Below are positions 3,370-46,323 of a DNA stretch of 46,323 nt, one piece after another. Origin of the DNA: a virus; IMG/VR virus record IMGVR_UViG_3300037493_004418, positions 1 through 46,323 of that record. One strand, written 5' to 3'. Below the pieces are notes generated by a model. The model did no database searches and was not told the origin of the DNA. It saw nothing but the letters and a program-made list of their open reading frames with translations. The position numbers and the translations under genes were made by a program. The stretch's first letter is position 1; every line of letters begins with the position of its first letter.

Positions 3370-4131
3370 TTATTTTTTATCATCAATAGAAATTAATGTT
3401 CTATTTTGAAAATATTTTATTTTGTCACCAATTTTTGCGTTTTTATATTCTTGAATAAATTCTTGAATTTGGTTTTCATTCCATCTGATTGAAGCTGCTG
3501 CATTCTTGAATTTATTTTCAATGTCAGTTCTAATCATTGAATAATGATCCATTAAAAGTGAATCATCCATTACAAAGATGTGTGTTGACGTGTTTACCTT
3601 AACAGATGGATCAACAAGAACTGGATATTTTACAGATGATGAAATGCTGGTTAATGGGTACATTTTATGTATGAATGGCATATAATATGATTCAATTGGT
3701 TCTAAAATCCAGTTTTTTTGCTTGTAATATGTGCGCATTCTAGTCACAATTAGATCATATTGATCTGAATTAATTATTTTTTTTCCTTCCAGAATCATTT
3801 CAGGTGAATAAAAATGATCAGCAGCAGCCATAATGAAGTGTGTTGAACCTTCTGATTTTGCATGTTGAATCATCATATTGTGTTTTACACGTTCATTTTC
3901 CTTGGTTGAAAGCGTTAAATCAGGTGTAAATTCATGAATTTCAAAGTTTAACGCCTGTTGTGTATTAAAATCAATTAATGGACCATTAATGAAGTTATGA
4001 TGTCCTTTATTTGATATGGTTTGAATGAAAATTGATATTTGATCAACATGATTTTTGTGATGCTTAATTGAATCAAGTAACATTTGAACATCATCACCAG
4101 TCCAAAATGTGTATAGTAAGTGCAATTTCAT
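3370..4131 (-). CDS. Glycosyltransferase-like protein (GT-A fold)
   Basis: Probably transfers a sugar from a nucleotide donor. The N-terminus (MKLHLLYTFWTGDDVQMLLDSI) has the beta-strand and helix pattern of family 2-like transferases. IMAAADHFYSP near residues 155-165 lies where the metal-binding DxD motif is expected, but only one Asp is present, so catalysis is less certain than for its neighbours. At 253 residues it is typical of small phage transferases. It is the last gene of the minus-strand accessory block and reads towards the terminator at 3283-3318. Acceptor unknown. Confidence 0.6.
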   Translation of the reverse strand: MKLHLLYTFWTGDDVQMLLDSIKHHKNHVDQISIFIQTISNKGHHNFINGPLIDFNTQQALNFEIHEFTPDLTLSTKENERVKHNMMIQHAKSEGSTHFIMAAADHFYSPEMILEGKKIINSDQYDLIVTRMRTYYKQKNWILEPIESYYMPFIHKMYPLTSISSSVKYPVLVDPSVKVNTSTHIFVMDDSLLMDHYSMIRTDIENKFKNAAASIRWNENQIQEFIQEYKNAKIGDKIKYFQNRTLISIDDKK

Positions 4132-4665: not shown

Positions 4666-5178
4666 TCAACACTTTAACTTTGCAGGGTTTCCATAAACAA
4701 TTTCATTTTCATTCACATTCTTAACAACAACAGATCCAAGTCCAACAAGTGAATTTTCACCAATTTGAATCCTATTTCTAATTGTAACACCAAGTTTTAT
4801 TTTTGATTTCCTTCCAATCACAGCGTGTCCACCAATGATTGTTCCAGTGCAAATTTCACAATCATCACCAACAAACGCATCATGTCCAACGTGTGAATGT
4901 GCCATTATTATATTGTTGTTGCCAATAAAAGTTATTTTATTCTGTTCAAAAGGGCGTTGGATTGAAACGAATTCACTAATTACATTATTATTTCCAATCT
5001 GAACATGGCCTTTAAAATCCTTTTGTGATACACCACGCATTTCACCATTTGATCCAATAACGCAATATGCACCAATTGTGTTTCCTGTTCCAAGAATAAC
5101 GTTTGGATGAATTATTGCTGTTTTGTGAATATCGTTTCCATCAATATTGATCCAATCATGGTTGTATAAATCATTCAT
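4666..5178 (-). CDS. LpxA-like hexapeptide-repeat acyltransferase
   Basis: Left-handed beta-helix transferase that probably acetylates or acylates a sugar. Many hexapeptide repeats are visible from residue 18 on (IHPNVI, IGAYCVIG, IGNNNVI, IGENSLVG). MAHSHVGHDAFVGDD near residue 100 closely follows the catalytic His segment of LpxA (AHIAHDCTVG), and GGHAVIG matches the next coil. At 170 residues it lacks the C-terminal helical domain of true LpxA (about 262), and it ends in YGNPAKLK, as sugar O-acetyltransferases do. It lies 5 bases downstream of the amidotransferase gene, so the two are co-transcribed. Substrate unknown. Confidence 0.8.
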   Translation of the reverse strand: MNDLYNHDWINIDGNDIHKTAIIHPNVILGTGNTIGAYCVIGSNGEMRGVSQKDFKGHVQIGNNNVISEFVSIQRPFEQNKITFIGNNNIIMAHSHVGHDAFVGDDCEICTGTIIGGHAVIGRKSKIKLGVTIRNRIQIGENSLVGLGSVVVKNVNENEIVYGNPAKLKC

Positions 5179-5183
5179 TTTTT

Positions 5184-6524
5184 CTATATTTTATTTGTTA
5201 TAAATTCAACCCACTGATCATTATTCATGTATGGATTTGAAAAACCTTTTTTCATTCCATTAATCACATCTGGATGCAGTCCTGAAATACCCTTCAAGAT
5301 ACGTTTATTTTTTAAATATTCATCCGGAAGTGATAAAGCAAAATCAACAAGATCATTATCAAGTAATGGATACCTTGTTTCCATTGTATGAAATCCAGCA
5401 ATTGCATCTTCAATGTTCAGAACACCATTCAAAAATTTTAAATCATAATCAAAATGTGAAATGTCATATTGCGGACCATCATTTGATGTTCTTTTGATTA
5501 CTTTATTTATTGGTTTGTTAATTCTGTGTGGATAACCACCAAAGAATTCATCACCACCAGCGCCCGAATAAATAACGGTGCAAAATTTTGAAGCAAATTC
5601 AGTTAATGCAAAATTTGTGTAACTTGAACCAACTTTTGGATCCTGGATGCATTGAAATAATTTATTTGAATATTCATTGAATAGTTCTTTGTTGCAAATC
5701 AATGAATAATGTTTACCGGTTGAATTTAATTTTATGTTTTCAATTTCAGAATAGTTTGAATCCACATAATCCATTGAAAAGCTATATTCAGGCTTCATGA
5801 ACCTTGCAATTATTCCAGAATCAATTCCACCAGACAAGAAAACACAATCATTTAGTTCTGTTTTGTTTCTATCACATGATTGAATGAATAATTTCTTCAA
5901 CTGAATCTTTGCTTCATTGTAGGTAATATTAATTTTTTCAGGAATTACAAGTGATAATTTTCTTGTTCTGGTTATTCCTTTATAAATTGAATTTACATTC
6001 ATAACACCAAGATCGTATTTGAATTGGTTCAATTTATCTTGATCAATTTCAATTTCAGGACATGCAGCAAGAATTGATTTTATTTCTGAAGCAATGAATA
6101 TTTTATTTCCTTTTTTATATTCATATAGTTTTTTGATTCCAAATTTATCAGTGAATGTGGTCCATTCTGTTCCATTAAAATATAATACAGCAAAAAAACC
6201 ATTCAATTCATTTAGTTTTTTTCCTTTGAATTTATCCAGGAACTTTGCCAATAATTCTGTATCACATTTTGAATCTAATTTGATGTTGTATTTTTCAGCT
6301 AATTCATTGTAGTTTGAAATAAATCCATTCATCCACACCATATAATTATTTGATGTGAATGGTTGCATTTTAGCTGTTGAATCGGTTATTGGAAGCCAAC
6401 TGAAATTCACAAATGAATTTGCAGTTTTTGTTACACCTTGAAAAATTCCACGTTTTGATGAATTATCAATCATTGATTGAATATCTTTCAAAGAACCATT
6501 TAAAACAGCGTTTATTCCACACAT
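5184..6524 (-). CDS. Asparagine synthetase (glutamine-hydrolysing)-like amidotransferase
   Basis: Both catalytic halves of the AsnB family are present. The N-terminal glutaminase starts MCGI, with Cys2 as the expected nucleophile, and contains LNGFFAVLYF and ASEIKSIL. The synthetase half has the PP-loop SGGIDS near residue 230, SGAGGDEFFGGYP and ETRYPLLDNDLVDFAL. It should use glutamine ammonia to amidate an acyl-adenylate. At 446 residues it is about 100 shorter than E. coli AsnB (554), as in amidotransferases of glycan clusters. With glycosyltransferases and an LpxA-like protein beside it, amidation of a sugar acid or aminoacyl-sugar is more likely than free asparagine synthesis. Its start overlaps the upstream gene by 13 bases. 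Confidence 0.88.
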   Translation of the reverse strand: MCGINAVLNGSLKDIQSMIDNSSKRGIFQGVTKTANSFVNFSWLPITDSTAKMQPFTSNNYMVWMNGFISNYNELAEKYNIKLDSKCDTELLAKFLDKFKGKKLNELNGFFAVLYFNGTEWTTFTDKFGIKKLYEYKKGNKIFIASEIKSILAACPEIEIDQDKLNQFKYDLGVMNVNSIYKGITRTRKLSLVIPEKINITYNEAKIQLKKLFIQSCDRNKTELNDCVFLSGGIDSGIIARFMKPEYSFSMDYVDSNYSEIENIKLNSTGKHYSLICNKELFNEYSNKLFQCIQDPKVGSSYTNFALTEFASKFCTVIYSGAGGDEFFGGYPHRINKPINKVIKRTSNDGPQYDISHFDYDLKFLNGVLNIEDAIAGFHTMETRYPLLDNDLVDFALSLPDEYLKNKRILKGISGLHPDVINGMKKGFSNPYMNNDQWVEFITNKI

Positions 6525-29092: not shown

Positions 29093-29378
29093 ATGCAGTA
29101 TTTGGATATAATTTTTGCTTCAATTTTCGCTATAATAGGGTATTTTTTAAAGGATATTCATTCAAATTTTAAAGAACACAAAAAAAAGTAGTGACCAACA
29201 ACACTTGCAGTTCAGTGAAGAAGTTGGAAAATTAAAAGGAAAAATTGAAATGGTTCAACAGCAATCAACAAATGATATTAGCAGAATTGAACAATTAACA
29301 CAATTGAAACTTGACCAAATATCCAAAGATGTTTCAAAATTAAGTAAATTTTTACATCAATTCATAAATGCTAAATAA
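29093..29378 (+). pseudogene. Membrane-anchored coiled-coil protein split by a frameshift at eight A residues
   Basis: The first part (29093-29191) codes a 32-residue peptide, MQYLDIIFASIFAIIGYFLK then DIHSNFKEHKKK, i.e. one membrane helix and a charged tail, and stops just after an A8 run at 29180-29187. From 29187 a different frame (+1) is open for 63 codons: LQFSEEVGKLKGKIEMVQQQ, then ISRIEQLTQLKLDQISKDVS, a coiled coil, ending in TAA at 29376-29378 that overlaps the next ATG. Together they make a common phage protein type with an N-terminal anchor and a coiled coil. The split may be programmed frameshifting, a real mutation or a sequencing error in the A run. Confidence 0.65.
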
Positions 29379-31047: not shown

Positions 31048-31845
31048 TCATTGTATTTCTTCATTCATAATTGTTGCATTAACTTCAATTATTGAATCAG
31101 GTGCATTATTTGCATTGTCAGGATATTGAATTGAACCATCATCAGAAATAACACCTTGATCAGCTTCAATTGATTTTTGCATTTCAAGTGACATTGGACC
31201 ATATTTGGAAATCAATCTTTTGATAACTGTTTTTGAACACATTCCATTGAAATTTGTTTGCCATGTTCCATTTGCATTGTCAAATGTTTTTGAAAACTTT
31301 TTACCATGCAATTTTAATTCTTCTGTTGACATGAAAATTGTTTTTTCAAATCCATTTTTCAGTTTAAAATATGCAGCAAAACCAACTATTTCACCATTTG
31401 AAGGTTTATCAAAATCAAAAACATATCCAATCAATGGATTATTTGAAATCAATTGACCGTTATAAATTGGTGATTCACCAATTGTTGTATATTCACCAGA
31501 TCTGATTGCTAACTGAATTAATCCTTTTGCACTAACCTGAAATTGTGCAACTGTTTTTTTTACCCATTGTCCATTAACATTTGTTGATTGATTATAAGGA
31601 ACAATCCATGCATGTCCAATGTTGTTGTTGATTGGTAAGTTTAAAACAGCAGCCATTGCAGCAGCTTGAAATACGCTTGATGGTTCTGCATTAACCAACA
31701 TTGGGTTTGAACTCACAACTTGCATCACCGATGTAATGTAATTAGTTGAATTTTGTCCCAATAGTTCATTGAATTTTTCCAATACTTTTGGTGAATTCAT
31801 AAAATCTTTGATTGGGTTTTTTGACACTTCTAAATTTTGATTCAT
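31048..31845 (-). CDS. recT: RecT-family single-strand annealing protein
   Basis: Anneals complementary single strands during phage recombination. The sequence has the RecT core: TNYITSVMQVVSSNPMLVNA, then SSVFQAAAMAAVLNLPINNN near residues 60-80 and the long beta-rich NGQWVKKTVAQFQVSAKGLI region near residues 90-110, followed by RSGEYTTIGESPIYNGQLI. The length of 265 residues is normal (E. coli RecT is 269). It follows a RecE-like exonuclease gene on the same strand, the usual partnership. It is transcribed from the divergent promoter near 32908. Confidence 0.92.
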   Translation of the reverse strand: MNQNLEVSKNPIKDFMNSPKVLEKFNELLGQNSTNYITSVMQVVSSNPMLVNAEPSSVFQAAAMAAVLNLPINNNIGHAWIVPYNQSTNVNGQWVKKTVAQFQVSAKGLIQLAIRSGEYTTIGESPIYNGQLISNNPLIGYVFDFDKPSNGEIVGFAAYFKLKNGFEKTIFMSTEELKLHGKKFSKTFDNANGTWQTNFNGMCSKTVIKRLISKYGPMSLEMQKSIEADQGVISDDGSIQYPDNANNAPDSIIEVNATIMNEEIQ

Positions 31846-31891
31846 TTTGTTTTATTTTGGGTTATTATTAAAAAATATTTAAATTCCTATA

Positions 31892-32695
31892 TTAAAAAAT
31901 ATTTAATGGTTTAACATCATCACCATATCCACACCAATTACCTGTTTTTTTGGCTTCTGAATAACTTTGAAGGTCCTGAAGGTATATTTCCCTCCCGTTT
32001 GCCATTGTGTCATTGTCAGCGTAAAATAAATTGACTAAATACGGTGGTGTTTTTTCAACAGCTACAAATATAAATGAATCAGGATTCATTCCATTGTGCA
32101 TTAAGCCTTCAAAGTAGAATGGTGCTTGTATATTGTATCTATATTTCCGCGCGTCCCTTCTGAATGCTTCTGTTGATGCATCTTCTGTTGATTTAAGATC
32201 AAGAACTATTCTTTTAAAGGTATTATATACATCTGGTTTTATTTTACATTTAACGCCCGTTTCTGGATTGGTCCAATAAAAAGGGTGTTCAATCAAACAA
32301 TTGAATGGATTCAATAAATCTTGCAACAGTTTATTTTTCTTAATTGAATTTGCCATTCCTTCAATCTTGATGTAGTTTTCAAGTGATAAAGGAAATTTTC
32401 CTTTGTTATTTTCAAGGAATGTTTTCTTTGCCATTCTTGAACCACTACCACTGAATTTTGGTGAAATAACAAACTGATCAGCAAATAAATGATTTTCCAA
32501 TACAAACGTGTGAAATGCACTTCCAAATATTAATGCATCTGATTTTTCTTCATCATATTCTTCTGATTGTCTTATAATCAAATATTCATATTCATAATGT
32601 GCTGGTGATTTGTTAACCAGTTTTAATCCTGAATTTGATATTTCATCAATTGATTGGTGGTATAACTTGTTTTCGTCCATATCAAATAAATTCAA
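31892..32695 (-). CDS. RecE-like PD-(D/E)XK exonuclease
   Basis: Produces 3' single strands for RecT. The N-terminal SIDEISNSGLKLVNKSPAHY and DALIFGSAFHTFVLENHLF (residues 15-75) match the RecE C-terminal nuclease family. GVKCKIKPDVYN provides the motif Asp, and FKRIVLDLKSTEDAST near residues 168-183 gives the D-x-K catalytic pair (DLKS). RKYRYNIQAPFYFEGLMHNG completes motif with Q and Y. The length of 267 residues fits the minimal nuclease domain. The gene overlaps the upstream small membrane gene by 14 bases. Confidence 0.88.
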   Translation of the reverse strand: MNLFDMDENKLYHQSIDEISNSGLKLVNKSPAHYEYEYLIIRQSEEYDEEKSDALIFGSAFHTFVLENHLFADQFVISPKFSGSGSRMAKKTFLENNKGKFPLSLENYIKIEGMANSIKKNKLLQDLLNPFNCLIEHPFYWTNPETGVKCKIKPDVYNTFKRIVLDLKSTEDASTEAFRRDARKYRYNIQAPFYFEGLMHNGMNPDSFIFVAVEKTPPYLVNLFYADNDTMANGREIYLQDLQSYSEAKKTGNWCGYGDDVKPLNIF

Positions 32696-36328: not shown

Positions 36329-39048
36329 ATGACATCAAACAGCTAAAAGAAGATTGTTCAATTGTTGATGTTGTTTCTAATTATGTTCATCTTGAAAAGC
36401 AAGGAATCCATCACAAGGGACTTTGTCCATTTCATGAAGATACAAAACCAACGTTGACTGTTACAGAATCAAAGAAGAAATACAAATGTTTTGCATGTGG
36501 TTCTGGTGGTGATCAGTTTGATTTCTTGATTGCAATGGGGCACACAATGCCTGAAGCAATTGATGAAATTAAACTTGGAATGGGTGTTTTGGATATTAAC
36601 CCAATAAAAATTAATGTTCCAAAGAAAACTGAAACTGTATGGAAGGTGAAATATCCATTTCCTGAACTAAACGGTTTCAAGCATTATAAATTTGGAGCAC
36701 CCACCAAAATATGGACATACAATGATGTTGAAGGAAATACACTTCAGCACGTTTGTAGGTTTGATTTTGAAGATGGTTCAAAACAAGTACTTCCATTAAT
36801 TTGGGCGCAAAATGAAAAAACATATGATTGGCGCTGGATGGCCTTGGAAAAACCACGGCCAATATATAATTTGGATTTATTAAATAAATTTCCATATGCT
36901 TCAATACTTGTTGTTGAAGGTGAAAAAACAGCACAACATGGACAAGAACACATTGATCCATCAAAAGTGATTGTTACAACGTGGATTGGTGGTGCAAATG
37001 GAATTAAGAATGTTGATTGGTCCCCTTTGAAAGATCGTAGAATTATATATTGTCCAGATCATGATACAAAACAAAGATATGGTGATTCACATAAATTAGC
37101 TGGAAAATTAAAACCATGGTATGAACAACCAGGAAACCATGCAATGCTTGAAATCAATAAATTAATTTCAACTGAATTAAATATTACTGATTCTAGATGG
37201 GTTAATGTTCCAAATACCTTTGATGATAAATGGGACATTGCAGATAAAAACTGGAATCAAGGTGAATTGCTTCAATTTATATATGGAAACATCACTGATG
37301 TTCCTGTAATAAATACTGAAGACAGGCAATCAGATGATAATCTGAAGCCATTCACACCGCCAATTGTTATTTCTGAACATCATGATGAAGCACCCATAAA
37401 AATGCATGGTGTTGATAATCTTGGTAAAGTAAATGTTTTTGAAAATGATCACTTCAGATTCCTTGGTTATGATAAGGATGAAAATGGAAAATTAATATAT
37501 TTTTTCTTTTCGTTTGATGCAAAAACAGTCATTAAATTAGCGCCATCATCAATGACAAAATCAAACTTGATGATGCTTGGACCAATTAATTGGTGGGAAA
37601 ATTTCTTTCCTGGAAGAACAGGATTGAATATTGATGCAGCACAACAATATTTAATTTCATATTCACATACATGTGGAATATTCAAAGAAAAATCTATTCG
37701 GGGGCGTGGTGCTTGGATTGATAATAAACGTTTTGTTGTGCATACAGGAAACACACTTATTGTTGATGGTGAATTTATTCCATTAAGAAAATTTGAATCA
37801 AAGTATGTTTATGAAATCAATGATCAATTAGATTTTTCTATTGGACAAAAAATGTCCACAACAGATGGCAGGCAAATAATTGATATGATTTCATCTTTAC
37901 GCTGGGAACGTGAAGTGAATGCATATCTTTTGGCAGGATGGTGTGTGATTTCGCCATTTTGTGGTGTTTTACCTTGGCGGCCACACATTTGGGTTACTGG
38001 TCCAGCTGGATCAGGAAAATCATGGACCATGGAACATGTTGTGAAAAAATTGGTTGGTGAAATTGGCGTTGTGATGCAAGGAAAAACAACAGAAGCATAT
38101 GTTCGTGGAAAACTTCAAAATGATGCATTACCAGTTCTTTTTGATGAATCAGATGTTGATTCACATAATGATAAAGAACGCGTTCAATCTGTTTTGGCAC
38201 TTGCAAGATCATCAAGCTATGGAAACGGTGGTGTTGTTGGTAAAGGAACACAATCTGGTGGTTCAAAAGAATATCAGATTAGATCCTGTTTTGCGTTTTC
38301 ATCAATTGGTGTTCAGCTTAATCAACAATCTGATAGATCAAGATTCACAATGCTTGGACTTCGTTCATTTGAAGGCTTCAAAAGTGATTCAGATTTTGCA
38401 GCTTTTCATGATCAGTGGAATTCAATTGTGAATAATGATTTGGTGAAATCACTTCATTCAAGAACAATGTTTTTGCTTCCAACAATACTGAAGAACATGA
38501 AAACATTCACTGATGCAGTCACACAAGTAATTGGAAACAGAAGGATTGGTGATCAAGTTGGTGGAATGCTTGCTGGTGCATATAGTTTGATTTCAAATAA
38601 TGAAATAACACTTGTTGATGCCATTGAATGGGTTAAAAAACGCGACTGGAACGAAGAACAATCACTTGAACAAACAAAAGATGAATATCAATTGTTTGGA
38701 CGTATCATGTCACAAGTGACATTTGTTGATTCACAATATGGAAGGGTTGACAGAACAATTGGTGAACTTGTTTCACTTGCATGCAATAGATCTTCAGAAG
38801 TTGGAATTTCATTTGATACAGCCAATTCAAGATTAAGAAGATTTGGAATAATTATTACAAATGAAAAGATAATCATTTCAAATTCATCACCTGAAATTTT
38901 GAATATCATCAAAGATTCTTCATGGTCCAGAAATTACAATAAAATTCTTGAAAGACTACCTTCAAGCGAAAAGATGGAATCAAGGACATTCACACCAGGA
39001 TTAAAATCAAGAGGAATTGCACTTCCAATTTCATTAATATTTGATTAA
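36325..39048 (+). CDS. Primase-helicase fusion protein
   Basis: Multi-domain replication enzyme. Residues 1-70 form a CHC2 zinc-finger primase domain (HHKGLCPFHEDTKPTLTVT, YKCFACGSGGDQFDFL). About residues 190-260 form a TOPRIM domain (ASILVVEGEKTAQHGQEHI with the catalytic Glu, and IIYCPDHDTKQRYGD with the D-x-D). The C-terminal half is a P-loop ATPase: VTGPAGSGKSWTMEHVV (Walker A near 559-566) and PVLFDESDVDSHNDKERV (Walker B). At 907 residues it is the largest gene here and the last of the replication operon. A terminator follows. Confidence 0.92.
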   Translation: MNDIKQLKEDCSIVDVVSNYVHLEKQGIHHKGLCPFHEDTKPTLTVTESKKKYKCFACGSGGDQFDFLIAMGHTMPEAIDEIKLGMGVLDINPIKINVPKKTETVWKVKYPFPELNGFKHYKFGAPTKIWTYNDVEGNTLQHVCRFDFEDGSKQVLPLIWAQNEKTYDWRWMALEKPRPIYNLDLLNKFPYASILVVEGEKTAQHGQEHIDPSKVIVTTWIGGANGIKNVDWSPLKDRRIIYCPDHDTKQRYGDSHKLAGKLKPWYEQPGNHAMLEINKLISTELNITDSRWVNVPNTFDDKWDIADKNWNQGELLQFIYGNITDVPVINTEDRQSDDNLKPFTPPIVISEHHDEAPIKMHGVDNLGKVNVFENDHFRFLGYDKDENGKLIYFFFSFDAKTVIKLAPSSMTKSNLMMLGPINWWENFFPGRTGLNIDAAQQYLISYSHTCGIFKEKSIRGRGAWIDNKRFVVHTGNTLIVDGEFIPLRKFESKYVYEINDQLDFSIGQKMSTTDGRQIIDMISSLRWEREVNAYLLAGWCVISPFCGVLPWRPHIWVTGPAGSGKSWTMEHVVKKLVGEIGVVMQGKTTEAYVRGKLQNDALPVLFDESDVDSHNDKERVQSVLALARSSSYGNGGVVGKGTQSGGSKEYQIRSCFAFSSIGVQLNQQSDRSRFTMLGLRSFEGFKSDSDFAAFHDQWNSIVNNDLVKSLHSRTMFLLPTILKNMKTFTDAVTQVIGNRRIGDQVGGMLAGAYSLISNNEITLVDAIEWVKKRDWNEEQSLEQTKDEYQLFGRIMSQVTFVDSQYGRVDRTIGELVSLACNRSSEVGISFDTANSRLRRFGIIITNEKIIISNSSPEILNIIKDSSWSRNYNKILERLPSSEKMESRTFTPGLKSRGIALPISLIFD

Positions 39049-40393: not shown

Positions 40394-41548
40394 ATGACAA
40401 AAATTAATGAACCAATTGTGAAGTCAACTAAGAAAAAAACAGATGAAACAACACCTGTTATTATAACAGTTGAAACATTTGAAGATTCATCATTGAATCA
40501 ATTAAATGACTATTTATTGACAACAGATCAAGTGATTGATCAAGCAAAGAATTCAATGATAATGGATTCAATTGGATCTGATGAAAAACTGAATCAATTC
40601 ATTGAATCTTATTCATCATTGATAATTTCAGGAATTGAAGATATGACAACATACAAGGTTGTGAACGCTGCAATTTCTGAAGTAAAGAAAATGCGAACAA
40701 ACCTTGAAAAGAAACGCAAGGAATTGACAGCACCAGCACTTAGATTTCAGAAAGCCTTAATTGATGTTGAAAACATTTATTCACCTAAATTAAAGGAACT
40801 GGAAGAAAAATTGAAAGCTGAAAAAACAAGGATTGATGATGCAAAAGAAGCAGCAAAAAAAGTGCTTTATAATGAACGCGTGAACAAGTTGGTTGCAGCT
40901 GGCTATGAACTTGCAAGCGGTTTTTTCATTTGTGGTGCATTACAGGTTCCAACAACTGAAGTGACTGAATATTCAAATGATGAAATTGAATTTTATGTTC
41001 TTGAAGGCACGAAAGAACTTGAGCGCAAAAAAGCTGAACAGCTAAGAAAAGATGAACAAGAACGGTTTTTAAAAGAACAACGTGAAGCACTGGAAGCTGA
41101 AAAATTAGAACTGGCAACAATGAAAGCTGAAATGCTTCAAATGAAAGCTGATATGCTGAAGGAACGCCAAGAAATACAGGCGCAAAAAACAGCACTTGAA
41201 ACAACATATGAAACGGCTATTGAACAACCACATGAACCAGTAATGAACCCAAACCCAATTGAAGGTAATGGAATGATTGTAATGGAAGGAACACCACCAC
41301 CAGCATCAATTCAAATGGCTGAACAGTCAAAACCAATAATACAAAGCACATCAGAAAAGATTGCAGCATTGAATAAAAATGAACCAATAATTCAACCTGT
41401 TATTATTCCAGCTGATGTTCCAATTGTCGTTTCAGAAGAATTCAAGCGCGGTTTTGATTACTGCAAAATTGAAGTGTGCAATATCTTAAAAACAAGAGCC
41501 GATTTGAAGTCAAGAGCAGAATTTATTGAAGCAATAAACCTTCTATAA
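40394..41548 (+). CDS. DUF1351-like coiled-coil phage protein
   Basis: A 384-residue protein of a type often found with phage recombination genes. AISEVKKMRTNLEKKRKELT followed by APALRFQKALIDVENIY near residues 95-130 resembles the DUF1351 core. A long charged coiled coil follows (residues about 200-275, LEAEKLELATMKAEMLQMKA), then a Pro-rich linker and a small helical C-terminal domain (VCNILKTRADLKSRAEFIEA). Function is unknown in the family; association with RecT suggests DNA metabolism. Its stop overlaps the next start (TAATG). Confidence 0.65.
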   Translation: MTKINEPIVKSTKKKTDETTPVIITVETFEDSSLNQLNDYLLTTDQVIDQAKNSMIMDSIGSDEKLNQFIESYSSLIISGIEDMTTYKVVNAAISEVKKMRTNLEKKRKELTAPALRFQKALIDVENIYSPKLKELEEKLKAEKTRIDDAKEAAKKVLYNERVNKLVAAGYELASGFFICGALQVPTTEVTEYSNDEIEFYVLEGTKELERKKAEQLRKDEQERFLKEQREALEAEKLELATMKAEMLQMKADMLKERQEIQAQKTALETTYETAIEQPHEPVMNPNPIEGNGMIVMEGTPPPASIQMAEQSKPIIQSTSEKIAALNKNEPIIQPVIIPADVPIVVSEEFKRGFDYCKIEVCNILKTRADLKSRAEFIEAINLL

Positions 41549-41820
41549 TGAAAGCCACAACTAAAACTGCAATGAAAGCAACAACAAAAATCATAATAGT
41601 ATTGACATATTCTTTTTATGTGTCAATACTTGTTTTGTTCTTTTATTTGTGTATAACGAACGGAAATAAAAAACAAACTGTAATTCCTGAAGAAACAATT
41701 GAATATGAAAAACCTGTCACGATTACTGATTCAAACAGGATTGATTATGATTGGGTTAATGATAATGAATTGCATGTAAATAAACGAAGTGTATATGATT
41801 ACATGATTAATGATAAATAA
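41548..41820 (+). CDS. Small membrane protein next to the cassette insertion
   Basis: A 90-residue protein with one membrane helix near residues 13-33 (IIIVLTYSFYVSILVLFFYL) after a Thr/Lys-rich start with a MKATTKTAMKATTK duplication, then an acidic soluble tail. No family recognised. Its stop codon lies inside the left arm of the first cassette hairpin, so the hairpin may once have been its transcription end. Confidence 0.6.
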   Translation: MKATTKTAMKATTKIIIVLTYSFYVSILVLFFYLCITNGNKKQTVIPEETIEYEKPVTITDSNRIDYDWVNDNELHVNKRSVYDYMINDK

Positions 41821-41892
41821 CGGTTACAGCTATACGTCAGGTTTTGTTTTTCACAAAACTTGAGTATAGGTGGTGTTACAGGTAGTAGGGAT
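41804..41892. repeat. Cassette hairpin H1 (attC-like)
   Basis: Left arm ends GATAAATAAC at 41821; right arm begins GTTACAGG at 41875. Between them CTATAC (41830) pairs with GTATAG, TCAG with TTGA (one G-U pair) and GTTTTG with CAAAAC, while G836 of the left side (41836) is left unpaired, like the extrahelical bases of attC sites. The outer arms do not match each other: the left arm matches 44127-44145 instead, and the right arm matches the left arm of H2. Confidence 0.75.
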
Positions 41893-41940
41893 TTCTACCA
41901 CAAAAGTTAATTAGAAGTACAAACAAAAAAGAATTTAAAA

Positions 41941-42885
41941 ATGAGTGGGGGCAAAAAAGAAAAAATTAACGTATTGTCATTATTTGGCGGTATAGAGTGT
42001 GGAAGAGTAGCACTTGACAGAGAAAATATAGACATTAATAAATATTACAGTAGTGAAATTTGCAAGGATGCTATAAAAGTTGCAGATGGAAATTATAGCG
42101 ATATTGTGCAACTTGGAGATATAACGAAATGGAAAGAATGGGATATTAATTGGGGAAGTATTAATCTACTACTTGCTGGATTTCCTTGTCAAAGTTGGAG
42201 TTTAGCAGGGAAGCAGAAGGGGATATTAGATGAACGTGGAAAACTTGTTTATTGTATGATTGATATACTAAGCGAGATAAGGAAAACAAACCCTGATATT
42301 AAGTTTCTGTTTGAAAACGTAAAAATGAAACCTGAATATTTAGATTTTTTGAATGAAAAAATTGGAGTTTACCCTATACGTTTTAATAGTAAAGATGTTT
42401 CTGCTGGTATGCGAGATAGATATTATTGGACTAACATTGAGAATGTGAAACCACTACCGAAAAGGGATATTAAACTTAGTGATGTTTTAGACAGCGGAAA
42501 AGTAGATAGAGAAAAGGCTTTGTGTATTACAAAAAGATACGAGGGTTTTAGTGGTTCTCAATCTTATTTAAGACGTAGGTATTTTGGCAAAAGTATGGGG
42601 CAAGCTGTTTTTGAGAATTGTGAACCGATTGAGCAAATGGAAATGTGGAAAGCTGATGACCGAAAAGAATATAATACAGTTGGTATTATAAGAAGTTTAA
42701 CCACAAGAGAATGTGAGAAAATACAAACACTACCAGTTGGCTATGTTGAGAATATAATAGGTGATAATATGAAAGCAAAGGGTGTGATTGGGAATGGATG
42801 GACAGTAGATGTGATTGCTCATATTTTTTCTTTTTTAAAAGGGGGGGGGGAATTTTTAAATTCTTTTTCTAACGAAAATGTTTAA
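41941..42885 (+). CDS. C5-cytosine DNA methyltransferase
   Basis: Methylates cytosine at carbon 5 in a sequence not predictable here. Motifs are complete: LSLFGGIECGR (I, residues 13-23), AGFPCQSWSLAG (IV, catalytic Cys near 83), FENVKMK (VI), RDRYYWTNIE (VIII), then a target-recognition region, RSLTTRECEKIQTLPVGY (IX) and GNGWTVDVIAHIFSFL (X). The length of 314 residues is typical for short enzymes. No restriction enzyme is nearby, so it is an orphan, probably protecting phage DNA. A run of ten G near the 3' end (42841-42850) alters only the tail if it varies. It lies in cassette 1. Confidence 0.92.
   Translation: MSGGKKEKINVLSLFGGIECGRVALDRENIDINKYYSSEICKDAIKVADGNYSDIVQLGDITKWKEWDINWGSINLLLAGFPCQSWSLAGKQKGILDERGKLVYCMIDILSEIRKTNPDIKFLFENVKMKPEYLDFLNEKIGVYPIRFNSKDVSAGMRDRYYWTNIENVKPLPKRDIKLSDVLDSGKVDREKALCITKRYEGFSGSQSYLRRRYFGKSMGQAVFENCEPIEQMEMWKADDRKEYNTVGIIRSLTTRECEKIQTLPVGYVENIIGDNMKAKGVIGNGWTVDVIAHIFSFLKGGGEFLNSFSNENV
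42841..42850 (+). repeat. Ten-G homopolymer in the methyltransferase gene
   Basis: A G10 run follows the motif X codons. Loss or gain of one G would change only the last 8 to 15 residues and the stop position. Such runs are rare in this AT-rich DNA and are prone to slippage. Confidence 0.9.
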
Positions 42886-42897
42886 TCGAAGCACTAC

Positions 42898-43055
42898 ATC
42901 CCTATTACTGCTAACGACTTGCTGCCTGGCGCACGGCCCGACTTTTTAAACAAATCGTTACACCGAAGTTAAGATTATTTTGATTCAAATTAATCGTTGT
43001 TTCGAAGCAAGATTTGAGGGTTGGCGCCAGACAGTTGTTAGCGGTATTATTTTTT
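42898..43055. repeat. Cassette hairpin H2 (attC-like, long)
   Basis: Left arm ends CTAAC at 42915, right arm begins GTTAGCGG at 43037. Inside, CTG and CTGGCGC (42922-42932) pair with GCGCCAG and CAG (43024-43034) with one mismatch; about 90 bases form the centre. The left outer arm (ATCCCTATTACTGCTAAC) is complementary to the start of cassette 1, not to the right arm. The right outer arm is complementary to the left arm of H3. Confidence 0.72.
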
Positions 43056-43102
43056 GTATATTTCCAAAATATTATCTAGCACTTTAATTAAAATAAAAGC
43101 AG

Positions 43103-43110
43103 TACATTTG
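43103..43110 (+). promoter_or_regulatory. Promoter -7 box inside cassette 2
   Basis: TACATTTG fits TAnnTTTG and lies 16 bases before the first gene of the cassette. The cassette can therefore be expressed wherever it lands. Confidence 0.6.
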
Positions 43111-43126
43111 CACCAATTTTTATGAC

Positions 43127-43468
43127 ATGGCTAAGAAAAAAGAGGAGATCATAACAATTCATAATATTAAAGGTACGAATCATCGGCAAATACATGTTGA
43201 TGGAGCGAGTGCAGGAATTACCCCTTCAGGATATATTAATGTTAATTTTTATAGTGAAAGAGGAGTGATTCCAAAATCTACATCATTTAAAATTAAGGAA
43301 GATGGCACTTTAGGATCTGTTGTAGGTCATTCTGAAGAATCTAAAGATGGAATTGTGAGAGAATTTGACTTTGGAATTTTTGTAGACATCAATACATGTA
43401 AAAGTTTAAGACAACTTTTGGATCAAAAAATAAAAGAATATTATCAATATACTCCCGAAAAACAATAA
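43127..43468 (+). CDS. Hypothetical protein, first gene of the toxin cassette
   Basis: A 113-residue soluble protein. IHVDGASAGITPSGYINVNF followed by YSERGVIPKSTSFKI is a beta-rich pattern I associate with uncharacterised proteins of genomic islands, often ahead of small antitoxin-like genes, but I cannot name a family. It lies 2 bases upstream of the next gene, so the three genes are probably one operon. Function unknown; a regulatory role in the toxin module is possible. Confidence 0.65.
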   Translation: MAKKKEEIITIHNIKGTNHRQIHVDGASAGITPSGYINVNFYSERGVIPKSTSFKIKEDGTLGSVVGHSEESKDGIVREFDFGIFVDINTCKSLRQLLDQKIKEYYQYTPEKQ

Positions 43469-43470
43469 CT

Positions 43471-43740
43471 ATGTATAATAGGCATTCAACATCGTTTACT
43501 GAAGATAGTGGCAATTTATATCTCACTTTGGGAGCAATTGGATTATCATTGATAAGTTACAGTGAACCTAAAGAACTCGAGCCAATTTTGAATAGGACAA
43601 ATTATGAACAAACAATAGATTTCTCTAGGGCTATGGACTTTGACGATGAATTAACAAATCACGCAATGATGCTTGCCCAAACAAGTTTGTCGGATGATTG
43701 GGATAATGAGGATAGTGCAAATTGGGAATCTTATTTGTGA
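43471..43740 (+). CDS. Probable antitoxin of the MazF/PemK module
   Basis: An 89-residue acidic protein directly upstream of the toxin. Its C-terminus (MLAQTSLSDDWDNEDSANWE then SYL) has the Trp- and acid-rich pattern of disordered antitoxin tails that wrap around the toxin. The N-terminal 60 residues (LYLTLGAIGLSLISYSEPKE) are not a recognisable DNA-binding domain and may bind the protein encoded upstream. Assignment rests on position, size and acidity. Confidence 0.6.
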   Translation: MYNRHSTSFTEDSGNLYLTLGAIGLSLISYSEPKELEPILNRTNYEQTIDFSRAMDFDDELTNHAMMLAQTSLSDDWDNEDSANWESYL

Positions 43741-43747
43741 TTTTATC

Positions 43748-44077
43748 GTGAATTATAATCAAGGGGATATTGTTCTGGTTCCATTTCCATTTACAGATGG
43801 AGCCAACTCGAAACCAAGACCAGCAATTGTTGTCTCCAATTCTAAAGTAAATTCGACTCAAGACGTTATTTTAGCACAGATAACATCTCAGCCACGTGCT
43901 GATGATTTTTCGTTTGCTTTAGAAAATTCTTCATTAGACATACCATTACATCAGTCAAGTCAAGTGCGTTGTCACAAAATATTTACTATGCAAAAGTCTG
44001 TGATAATAAAAAAAATATCTTCTCTTAAATCTTCAGGCATTACATCATTAAAGTCAAAAATAACGGGTTGTTTATAG
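43748..44077 (+). CDS. MazF/PemK-family mRNA interferase toxin
   Basis: Endoribonuclease toxin. NYNQGDIVLVPFPFTDGANS followed by KPRPAIVVSN at the N-terminus is the hallmark of the MazF/PemK beta-barrel, including the catalytic Arg of the 'K.RPa.vvs' strand. QVRCHKIFTMQKSVIIKKIS carries the second conserved strand. The GTG at 43748 is chosen because it gives the usual start just before the barrel; the frame is open back to 43673 inside the antitoxin gene. The length of 109 residues is typical. In cassettes such modules stabilise the DNA that carries them. Confidence 0.88.
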   Translation: MNYNQGDIVLVPFPFTDGANSKPRPAIVVSNSKVNSTQDVILAQITSQPRADDFSFALENSSLDIPLHQSSQVRCHKIFTMQKSVIIKKISSLKSSGITSLKSKITGCL

Positions 44078-44078
44078 T

Positions 44079-44145
44079 TACCGCTAACTGTCGTATAAGC
44101 GCCCGTTTCAATGGCGCTTATACTTTGTTATTTATCTGTTAATCA
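44079..44145. repeat. Cassette hairpin H3 (attC-like)
   Basis: TAAC at 44085-44088, a four-base spacer, a perfect 11-bp stem (GTATAAGCGCC with GGCGCTTATAC), a three-base spacer and GTTA at 44127. The left outer arm TACCGCTAAC is complementary to the start of cassette 2; the right outer arm GTTATTTATC plus TTAATCA is complementary to the left arm of H1, 2.3 kb away, with one bulge. Confidence 0.78.
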
Positions 44146-44657: not shown

Positions 44658-45332
<675 letters not shown>

Positions 45333-46310: not shown

Positions 46311-46323
46311 ATAAATGCGAAGC
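46311..46323 (+). repeat. Terminal overlap with the first 13 bases
   Basis: The last 13 bases (ATAAATGCGAAGC) are identical to bases 1-13. A chance match of this length at both ends is very unlikely, so the sequence is a circular or circularly permuted genome with an assembly overlap. Confidence 0.85.

Follow-up and report, generated by a model that had tools for sequence, protein, structure and literature searches.

Genes and features at the locus

The window, by which we mean the whole stretch of 46,323 bases analysed here, is an IMG/VR virus record with the gene set of a contractile-tail phage (sheath, tape measure, baseplate hub, portal and capsid), and it also encodes a primase/helicase and RecT. 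The same 13 bases (ATAAATGCGAAGC) stand at positions 1-13 and 46311-46323, and a relative, IMGVR_UViG_3300027973_000078, starts and ends at the same points as the window; given these shared ends, the genome is probably complete, with defined termini. The RecT annealing protein and an exonuclease VIII-like nuclease are encoded on the minus strand (31048-32695), and single-strand annealing by this RecT/exonuclease system could leave hairpins exposed during replication. No tyrosine recombinase was found in the window, the relative or the seven named phages discussed below, and TIGR02249 and PF00589 gave zero matches in the window. Rfam and tRNA searches likewise returned no matches.

The features of the locus are collected in Table 1. 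Between the two arms of a hairpin that begins in a phage gene, we found three attC-like hairpin cores and two gene blocks, one encoding a DNA methyltransferase and the other ending in a toxin gene. On the downstream side, a CAT repeat (44712-44751) corresponds to an aspartate-rich run in the minus-strand gene at 44658-45332, and a similar run is present in the relative.

Table 1. Features at and around the insertion, in window coordinates (arrow, point of exchange).
Feature	Position	Strand	Remarks
Upstream phage gene, 384 aa, function unknown	40394-41548	+	Its stop and the start of the 90-aa gene overlap; 85% identity to the relative
Target gene, 90 aa, function unknown	41548-41820	+	TAA at 41818-41820, inside the hairpin arm
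Phage hairpin, left arm: outer TGATTAA and R'' box GATAAATAAC ending in the AAC core	41804-41821	+	Homology with the relative stops at 41811
Putative point of recombination (AA↓C), immediately 3' of the stop codon	41820-41821	+	Placed by comparison with relatives
Unit 1: hairpin core 41822-41874, R' box GTTACAGGTAGTAGGGAT from 41875, C5-methyltransferase, R'' box ending at 42915	41821-42914	+	
C5-cytosine DNA methyltransferase, 314 aa	41941-42885	+	PF00145, E 3e-31; phrog_116; dcm
Unit 2: hairpin core 42916-43036, R' box GTTAGCGGTATT from 43037, three ORFs, R'' box TACCGCTAAC ending at 44088	42915-44087	+	
TACATTTG, Bacteroidota-type -7 promoter motif (TAnnTTTG), inside unit 2	43103-43110	+	
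Hypothetical protein, 113 aa	43127-43468	+	No phage match
Hypothetical protein, 89 aa, putative antitoxin	43471-43740	+	Antitoxin suggested by position
PemK/MazF-family toxin	43748-44077	+	PF02452, E 1e-17; GTG start preferred by reading; listed ORF from 43673
Phage hairpin, right half: core TGTCGTATAAGCGCC..GGCGCTTATACTTT, R' box GTTATTTATC (44127-44136), outer arm TTAATCA (44139-44145)	44088-44145	+	Homology with the relative resumes at about 44139
Downstream phage gene, 67 aa	44166-44369	+	91% identical in the relative

A hairpin restored from the flanks

As the initial annotation had pointed out, joining the flanks (41804-41875 to 44128 onwards) restores a long hairpin. It folds at -19.7 kcal/mol, against -4.3 +/- 1.7 kcal/mol for shuffles (z -9.2), and 0 of 200 shuffles were as good. 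Its outer arm is a 10-bp pairing of GATAAATAAC (41812-41821) with GTTATTTATC (44127-44136), followed by a second arm of 7 bp in which TGATTAA (41804-41810) pairs with TTAATCA (44139-44145). The 10-bp arm is unique, GTTATTTATC occurring at its two sites only on both strands of the whole window, and just 25 of the 115,580 AAC/GTT pairs within 5 kb (0.02%) reach at least 10 contiguous pairs (p about 2e-4). The restored hairpin is thus real and well beyond chance. Its left arm encloses the TAA stop codon of the gene at 41548-41820, also as annotated initially, and on the right the junction coincides exactly with the R' box of the last hairpin.

The hairpins of the window have R'' and R' boxes with AAC and GTT cores around an L''/L' inner stem, as expected of attC sites, and match the full RYYYAAC/GTTRRRY consensus in part only (e.g. 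GTTAGCG, GTTATTT). In contrast to an intrinsic terminator, in which a GC-rich stem precedes a T run, no T run follows either stem.

Which inner core belonged to the phage is not decided by energy, since the site rebuilt with the right core (41804-41820 plus 44088-44145) folds at -20.4 kcal/mol and the one with the left core, as proposed initially, at -21.9 kcal/mol, values that are nearly equal. The comparisons with relatives below favour the right-hand core (44088-44127) as the phage's own. The inner stem of the joined hairpin contains a single unpaired G (41836), which had been likened to the extrahelical bases that select the strand in attC recombination; this does not generalize, as most sites of the family use G-T wobbles and the coding strand folds best.

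Integron-like cassettes between the arms

Both inserts are integron-like cassettes, and the earlier suggestion of an occupied target at a stop-codon hairpin holds. The ends of cassette 2 are complementary over 10 pairs (start GTTAGCGGTA, end TACCGCTAAC), and those of cassette 1 (start GTTACAGGTAGTAGGGAT, end ATCCCTATTACTGCTAAC) show an extended but interrupted match, with 4 contiguous pairs and 8 of 12 overall. With three hairpins in 41812-44136 and no integrase, the locus agrees with the definition of a CALIN (at least two attC-like sites within a few kb, no integrase); an integron is defined by an integrase gene and an attI site, and the window has no integrase match. The units are not set apart by their GC content. 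Unit 2 may carry its own promoter, to judge from TACATTTG ahead of its first ORF.

The cassette proteins had distant matches only, in phages and plasmids. The hairpin arm of cassette 2 was not found in viral contigs, and a search of the genome collection with hairpin B gave one chance match, inside a Lachnospiraceae gene, and located no bacterial source. A run of ten G (42841-42850), the only G/C run of at least seven in the window, lies near the 3' end of the methyltransferase gene, behind the conserved domain; it may represent a phase-variation tract prone to slippage, or else a wobble of the assembly.

Unit boundaries in the relative and in other flavobacterial phages

Searches with the flanking genes returned one contig only, the relative introduced above, which is about 86-89% identical to the window over most of the genome. 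Its homologue of the gene at 41548 also ends in an R'' box containing the stop codon (CACTAAC), but its slot holds a different insert, consisting of a hairpin core and a PAPS-reductase-like gene with similarity to SspD. The last bases of this insert, GAGGCATAAC, are complementary to GTTATGCCTC, with which its gene block begins. This sole relative is itself occupied, and no insert-free target was found. The PAPS-reductase-like ORF is open through the hairpin (9425-9510 of the relative), and most of its phage homologues align from residue 30 only; judging from this alignment, the original start of the gene may be lost, with translation now beginning within the site.

All hairpins of the window are complete, and its polarity was therefore taken from other phages. 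We compared three sets: Polaribacter phages P12002L and P12002S, Flavobacterium phages filifjonk and mumin, and Cellulophaga phages phi12:1, phi17:1 and phi18:1. By these alignments, the mobile unit in all three sets is a hairpin, a gene and an R'' arm, and it breaks at the AA↓C of R'' and not at the G↓TT of R'.

Filifjonk9-1 and mumin9-1 are 99.95% identical over their main shared stretch, and filifjonk has three extra whole units, whose junctions lie at R'' (CCAC↓TAACGTT and CTTA↓TAACGTT). Where mumin reads ..CCACTAACGTTCTCGTGG.., filifjonk reads ..CCACTAACGTTTCGCGG.. on the left and ..CTTATAACGTTCTCGTGG.. on the right, which places the breakpoint within TAACGTT at R'' and assigns the 5' hairpin core to its gene. 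P12002L and P12002S have in common a 1,001-bp methyltransferase unit (99.2% identity) at different array positions, spanning from TAACGTTTGG, hairpin included, to GCATACAACG, and a second shared unit behaves likewise. The two phages are 99.9% identical next to the arrays, yet their first hairpin core differs. Both P12002L arrays end with the same 77-bp sequence (CAACGGATAAAACAAGTTTTACC.., at 29172-29248 and 37198-37274), also present in P12002S, possibly a fixed array end or a target.

In the Cellulophaga phages phi12:1, phi18:1 and phi17:1, three different inserts occupy the same stop-codon hairpin, flanked by a conserved ..GTTTAAC, which holds the gp7 stop codon, and by a conserved AACTACCATATAT core (AACTACCATATATAAAA..GTTAAACAT). 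Their outer boxes pair over 9 (phi17:1), 7 (phi18:1) and 5 (phi12:1) bases. Read in this way, the alignments indicate the same design as in the window, that is, a stop-codon hairpin opened right after the TAA with its own core on the right, and the initial proposal that hairpins behind phage genes serve as landing sites finds a matching layout in these three phages. A search of viral contigs for the uninterrupted target expected in Cellulophaga phages gave no match. The gene pair upstream of the site in phi12:1 resembles that of the window in layout, but the two pairs are not homologous. Phage phi17:1 has two copies of the right-hand target core (reverse complement 3859-4045 and 4842-5288), one behind each of two different cassettes, an arrangement suggestive of target duplication.

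The same comparisons bear on the left inner stem, which had been assigned to the target: in relatives, a gene moves together with the inner stem on its 5' side, and 41822-41874 is most likely part of the methyltransferase cassette rather than of the target.

Half-site complementarity and strand preference

Across 16 units, R'' and R' of the same unit pair over a mean of 8.4 contiguous bases, against 4.4 for the same R' with the preceding R''. As in attC cassettes, a circle formed from one unit would rebuild a complete site. We compared the strands in 29 distinct sites, comprising motif matches in viral contigs (two repetitive matches left out), the named phages and the window. The coding strand forms the more stable hairpin in 24 of the 28 sites that differ (p 1.8e-4, which is optimistic because the hairpins share ancestry).

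In canonical attC recombination, the bottom strand and the R' box are used (PMC12901181; PMC2727003). In contrast, the relatives do not show a G↓TT crossover at R' on the bottom strand with the site 3' of the gene; their breakpoints lie at the AAC of R'', and each hairpin stands 5' of its gene. Nor did we find a bottom-strand hairpin with L'' extrahelical bases, and no extrahelical base is consistent among the sites.

A candidate landing site for cassettes

Taken together, we consider it likely that the attC-like stop-codon hairpin is a landing site for cassettes that are joined at the AA↓C of R'' by a host recombinase. The phage hairpin, with the stop codon of the gene at 41548 at the end of its 5' arm (..AAATAA↓C..), would receive cassettes built as hairpin core, R' box, gene or genes and R'' box, the complementary boxes allowing a circle to form a complete hairpin. 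A recombinase of the integron-integrase type would then join the AA↓C of the circle's R'' to that of the target on the folded coding strand. In the product, the stop codon would be followed at once by the cargo, oriented like the phage gene upstream and probably transcribed with it, and the core of the target itself would now lie beyond the insert, on its right side (44088-44145). The methyltransferase unit (41821-42914) and the toxin-antitoxin-like unit (42915-44087) would each stem from one such event, whereas the relative would have received its PAPS-reductase-like unit instead. An insert-free relative should accordingly read GATAAATAACTGTCGTATAAG followed by the right core, with the junction GATAAATAACTGTCGTATAAGCG.

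Since the phage encodes no recombinase, we infer a host enzyme, which would have to come either from the bacterial cell or from an element that infects it at the same time. The candidate requiring the fewest assumptions is an integron integrase, given that IntI1 recombined one P12002L site (PMC9892861); another recombinase is conceivable, because complete integrons are reported to be rare in Bacteroidetes (PMC9024848). It counts against this landing-site model that the R'' boxes of window and relative differ despite the conserved gene, and that unit 1 pairs its own R'' and R' with interruptions. Moreover, the relative and P12002L have no hairpin core behind their last R'', unlike the window and the Cellulophaga phages with their full hairpin, and a hairpin target would thus not always be needed.

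Competing explanations

The strongest competitor, which we regard as possible rather than probable, keeps the same anatomy but assigns it to a host recombinase other than an integron integrase, either another tyrosine recombinase or a single-strand nuclease-ligase, acting on coding-strand hairpins. The R''-box crossover on the coding strand, the scarcity of extrahelical bases, the poor match of the R boxes to RYYYAAC/GTTRRRY and the reported rarity of complete integrons in Bacteroidetes (PMC9024848) all point this way, whereas the AAC/GTT cores, two-box hairpins and circle-closing arms are integron-like, and IntI1 accepted the P12002L site.

That the inserts are canonical cassettes, exchanged at the G↓TT of R', is unlikely. 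Their units would be 41876-43037 and 43038-44127, the left core (41822-41875) would be the target's own, and an insert-free relative would read GATAAATAACGGTTACAG followed by the left core, with the junction GATAAATAACGGTTACAGCTATA. The junctions of the initial annotation sit on G↓TT, the cassettes are complementary from start to end under either cut, and IntI1 can recombine the P12002L site into attI1 at an R-R' junction (PMC9892861). However, the three other phage sets break at the AAC of R'', with the 5' hairpin core moving with its gene; the first hairpin core of P12002L/S would have to be host sequence, yet it differs beside flanks that are almost identical; and the homology between window and relative also ends at R''. 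We dropped the canonical cut for the window units after the P12002L/S and filifjonk/mumin comparisons.

Recombination that is not site-specific is more doubtful still. Here the phage RecT/exonuclease or homologous recombination would shuffle genes, with the AAC/GTT palindromes as microhomology, in keeping with the RecT and exonuclease VIII-like protein of the window, the shared cores of 3-7 bases at the breakpoints and the illegitimate recombination suggested by Qi et al. (PMC9892861). It accords poorly with the recurrence of the same core at breakpoints in several independent lineages, with the exchange of whole units that have self-complementary ends (microhomology leaves own-unit complementarity unexplained) and with the arms of a 17-bp stem being separated by a 2.3-kb insert.

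Finally, we give hardly any credence to an ordinary transcription terminator or chance inverted repeat at which the cassettes lie by accident: hairpins behind genes are common and the TJE1 cassette cluster comes after a predicted terminator (PMC9892861), but the stem lacks a T run after it, the point at which the insert parts the arms coincides exactly with the box core, and Cellulophaga phages show the same stop-codon arrangement.

Relation to known systems

Integrons are understood as bacterial devices whose polarity is fixed by which attC strand is cut. Integron-type arrays in phages, including P12002L, have already been published (Qi et al. 2023, PMC9892861), and the window resembles these cassettes and CALINs in its AAC/GTT hairpins, tandem cassettes, lack of a phage integrase and methyltransferase cargo. 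In P12002L, the same study noted divergently oriented attC sites, and it suggested recombination of an off-target or illegitimate kind. What differs here is that the units run from hairpin through gene to R'' and break at R'', the gene being inverted relative to textbook cassette polarity, that the coding strand folds best, and that a phage stop-codon hairpin would replace attI as the target.

Crossover at R'' has a precedent in attC strand-choice mutants, as Bouvier et al. 2009 (PMC2727003) shifted it from R' to R'' by inverting the extrahelical bases and the spacer together. Those were engineered Vibrio VCR sites, whereas the phage arrays are natural and consistently of the R'' type. As far as attG sites are presented by a citing article (Loot et al. 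2024, cited in PMC12901181), they share with our locus the placement of cassettes at non-attI genome sites; taken as a plain double-stranded GTT-type site that lacks attC structure, attG would differ from the full attC-like hairpin targets of the window and Cellulophaga phages, whereas the hairpin-less right flanks of the relative and P12002L come closer to it. The Treponema reverse integrons (PMC3607928) also have an atypical orientation within the integron, but there it is the integrase gene that is turned, and the published description contains no cassette turned relative to its attC. In the open-licence literature searched, we found no report of R''-side units or stop-codon hairpin targets, and both the R''-side polarity and the stop-codon target appear to be new.

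We tentatively propose that Bacteroidota phages possess a distinct integron-like system of opposite polarity, in which stop-codon hairpins are the equivalent of attI, a host enzyme recombines coding-strand hairpins at R'', and swaps of methyltransferase or defence cassettes tune escape from restriction. If true, natural arrays in lytic phages would recombine at the other box with a stop codon as entry, integron polarity would be evolvable, and phages would run their own cassette exchange with a host enzyme. Most of the cargo consists of genes for DNA modification, DNA methyltransferases among them, or of toxin-antitoxin genes, and cassette exchange would explain near-identical phages that differ by whole methyltransferase genes. 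In the Muminvirus study of Baltic Flavobacterium phages (PMC7077304), plating efficiency on a second host varied with whether one methyltransferase was present, which fits counter-restriction, although we do not equate that methyltransferase with the unit seen here.

Two viral contigs (L029, 2324-2380, and L033, 4720-4776) share every base of a 57-bp hairpin core but not their R' boxes or genes, a uniformity like that of the VCRs of Vibrio.
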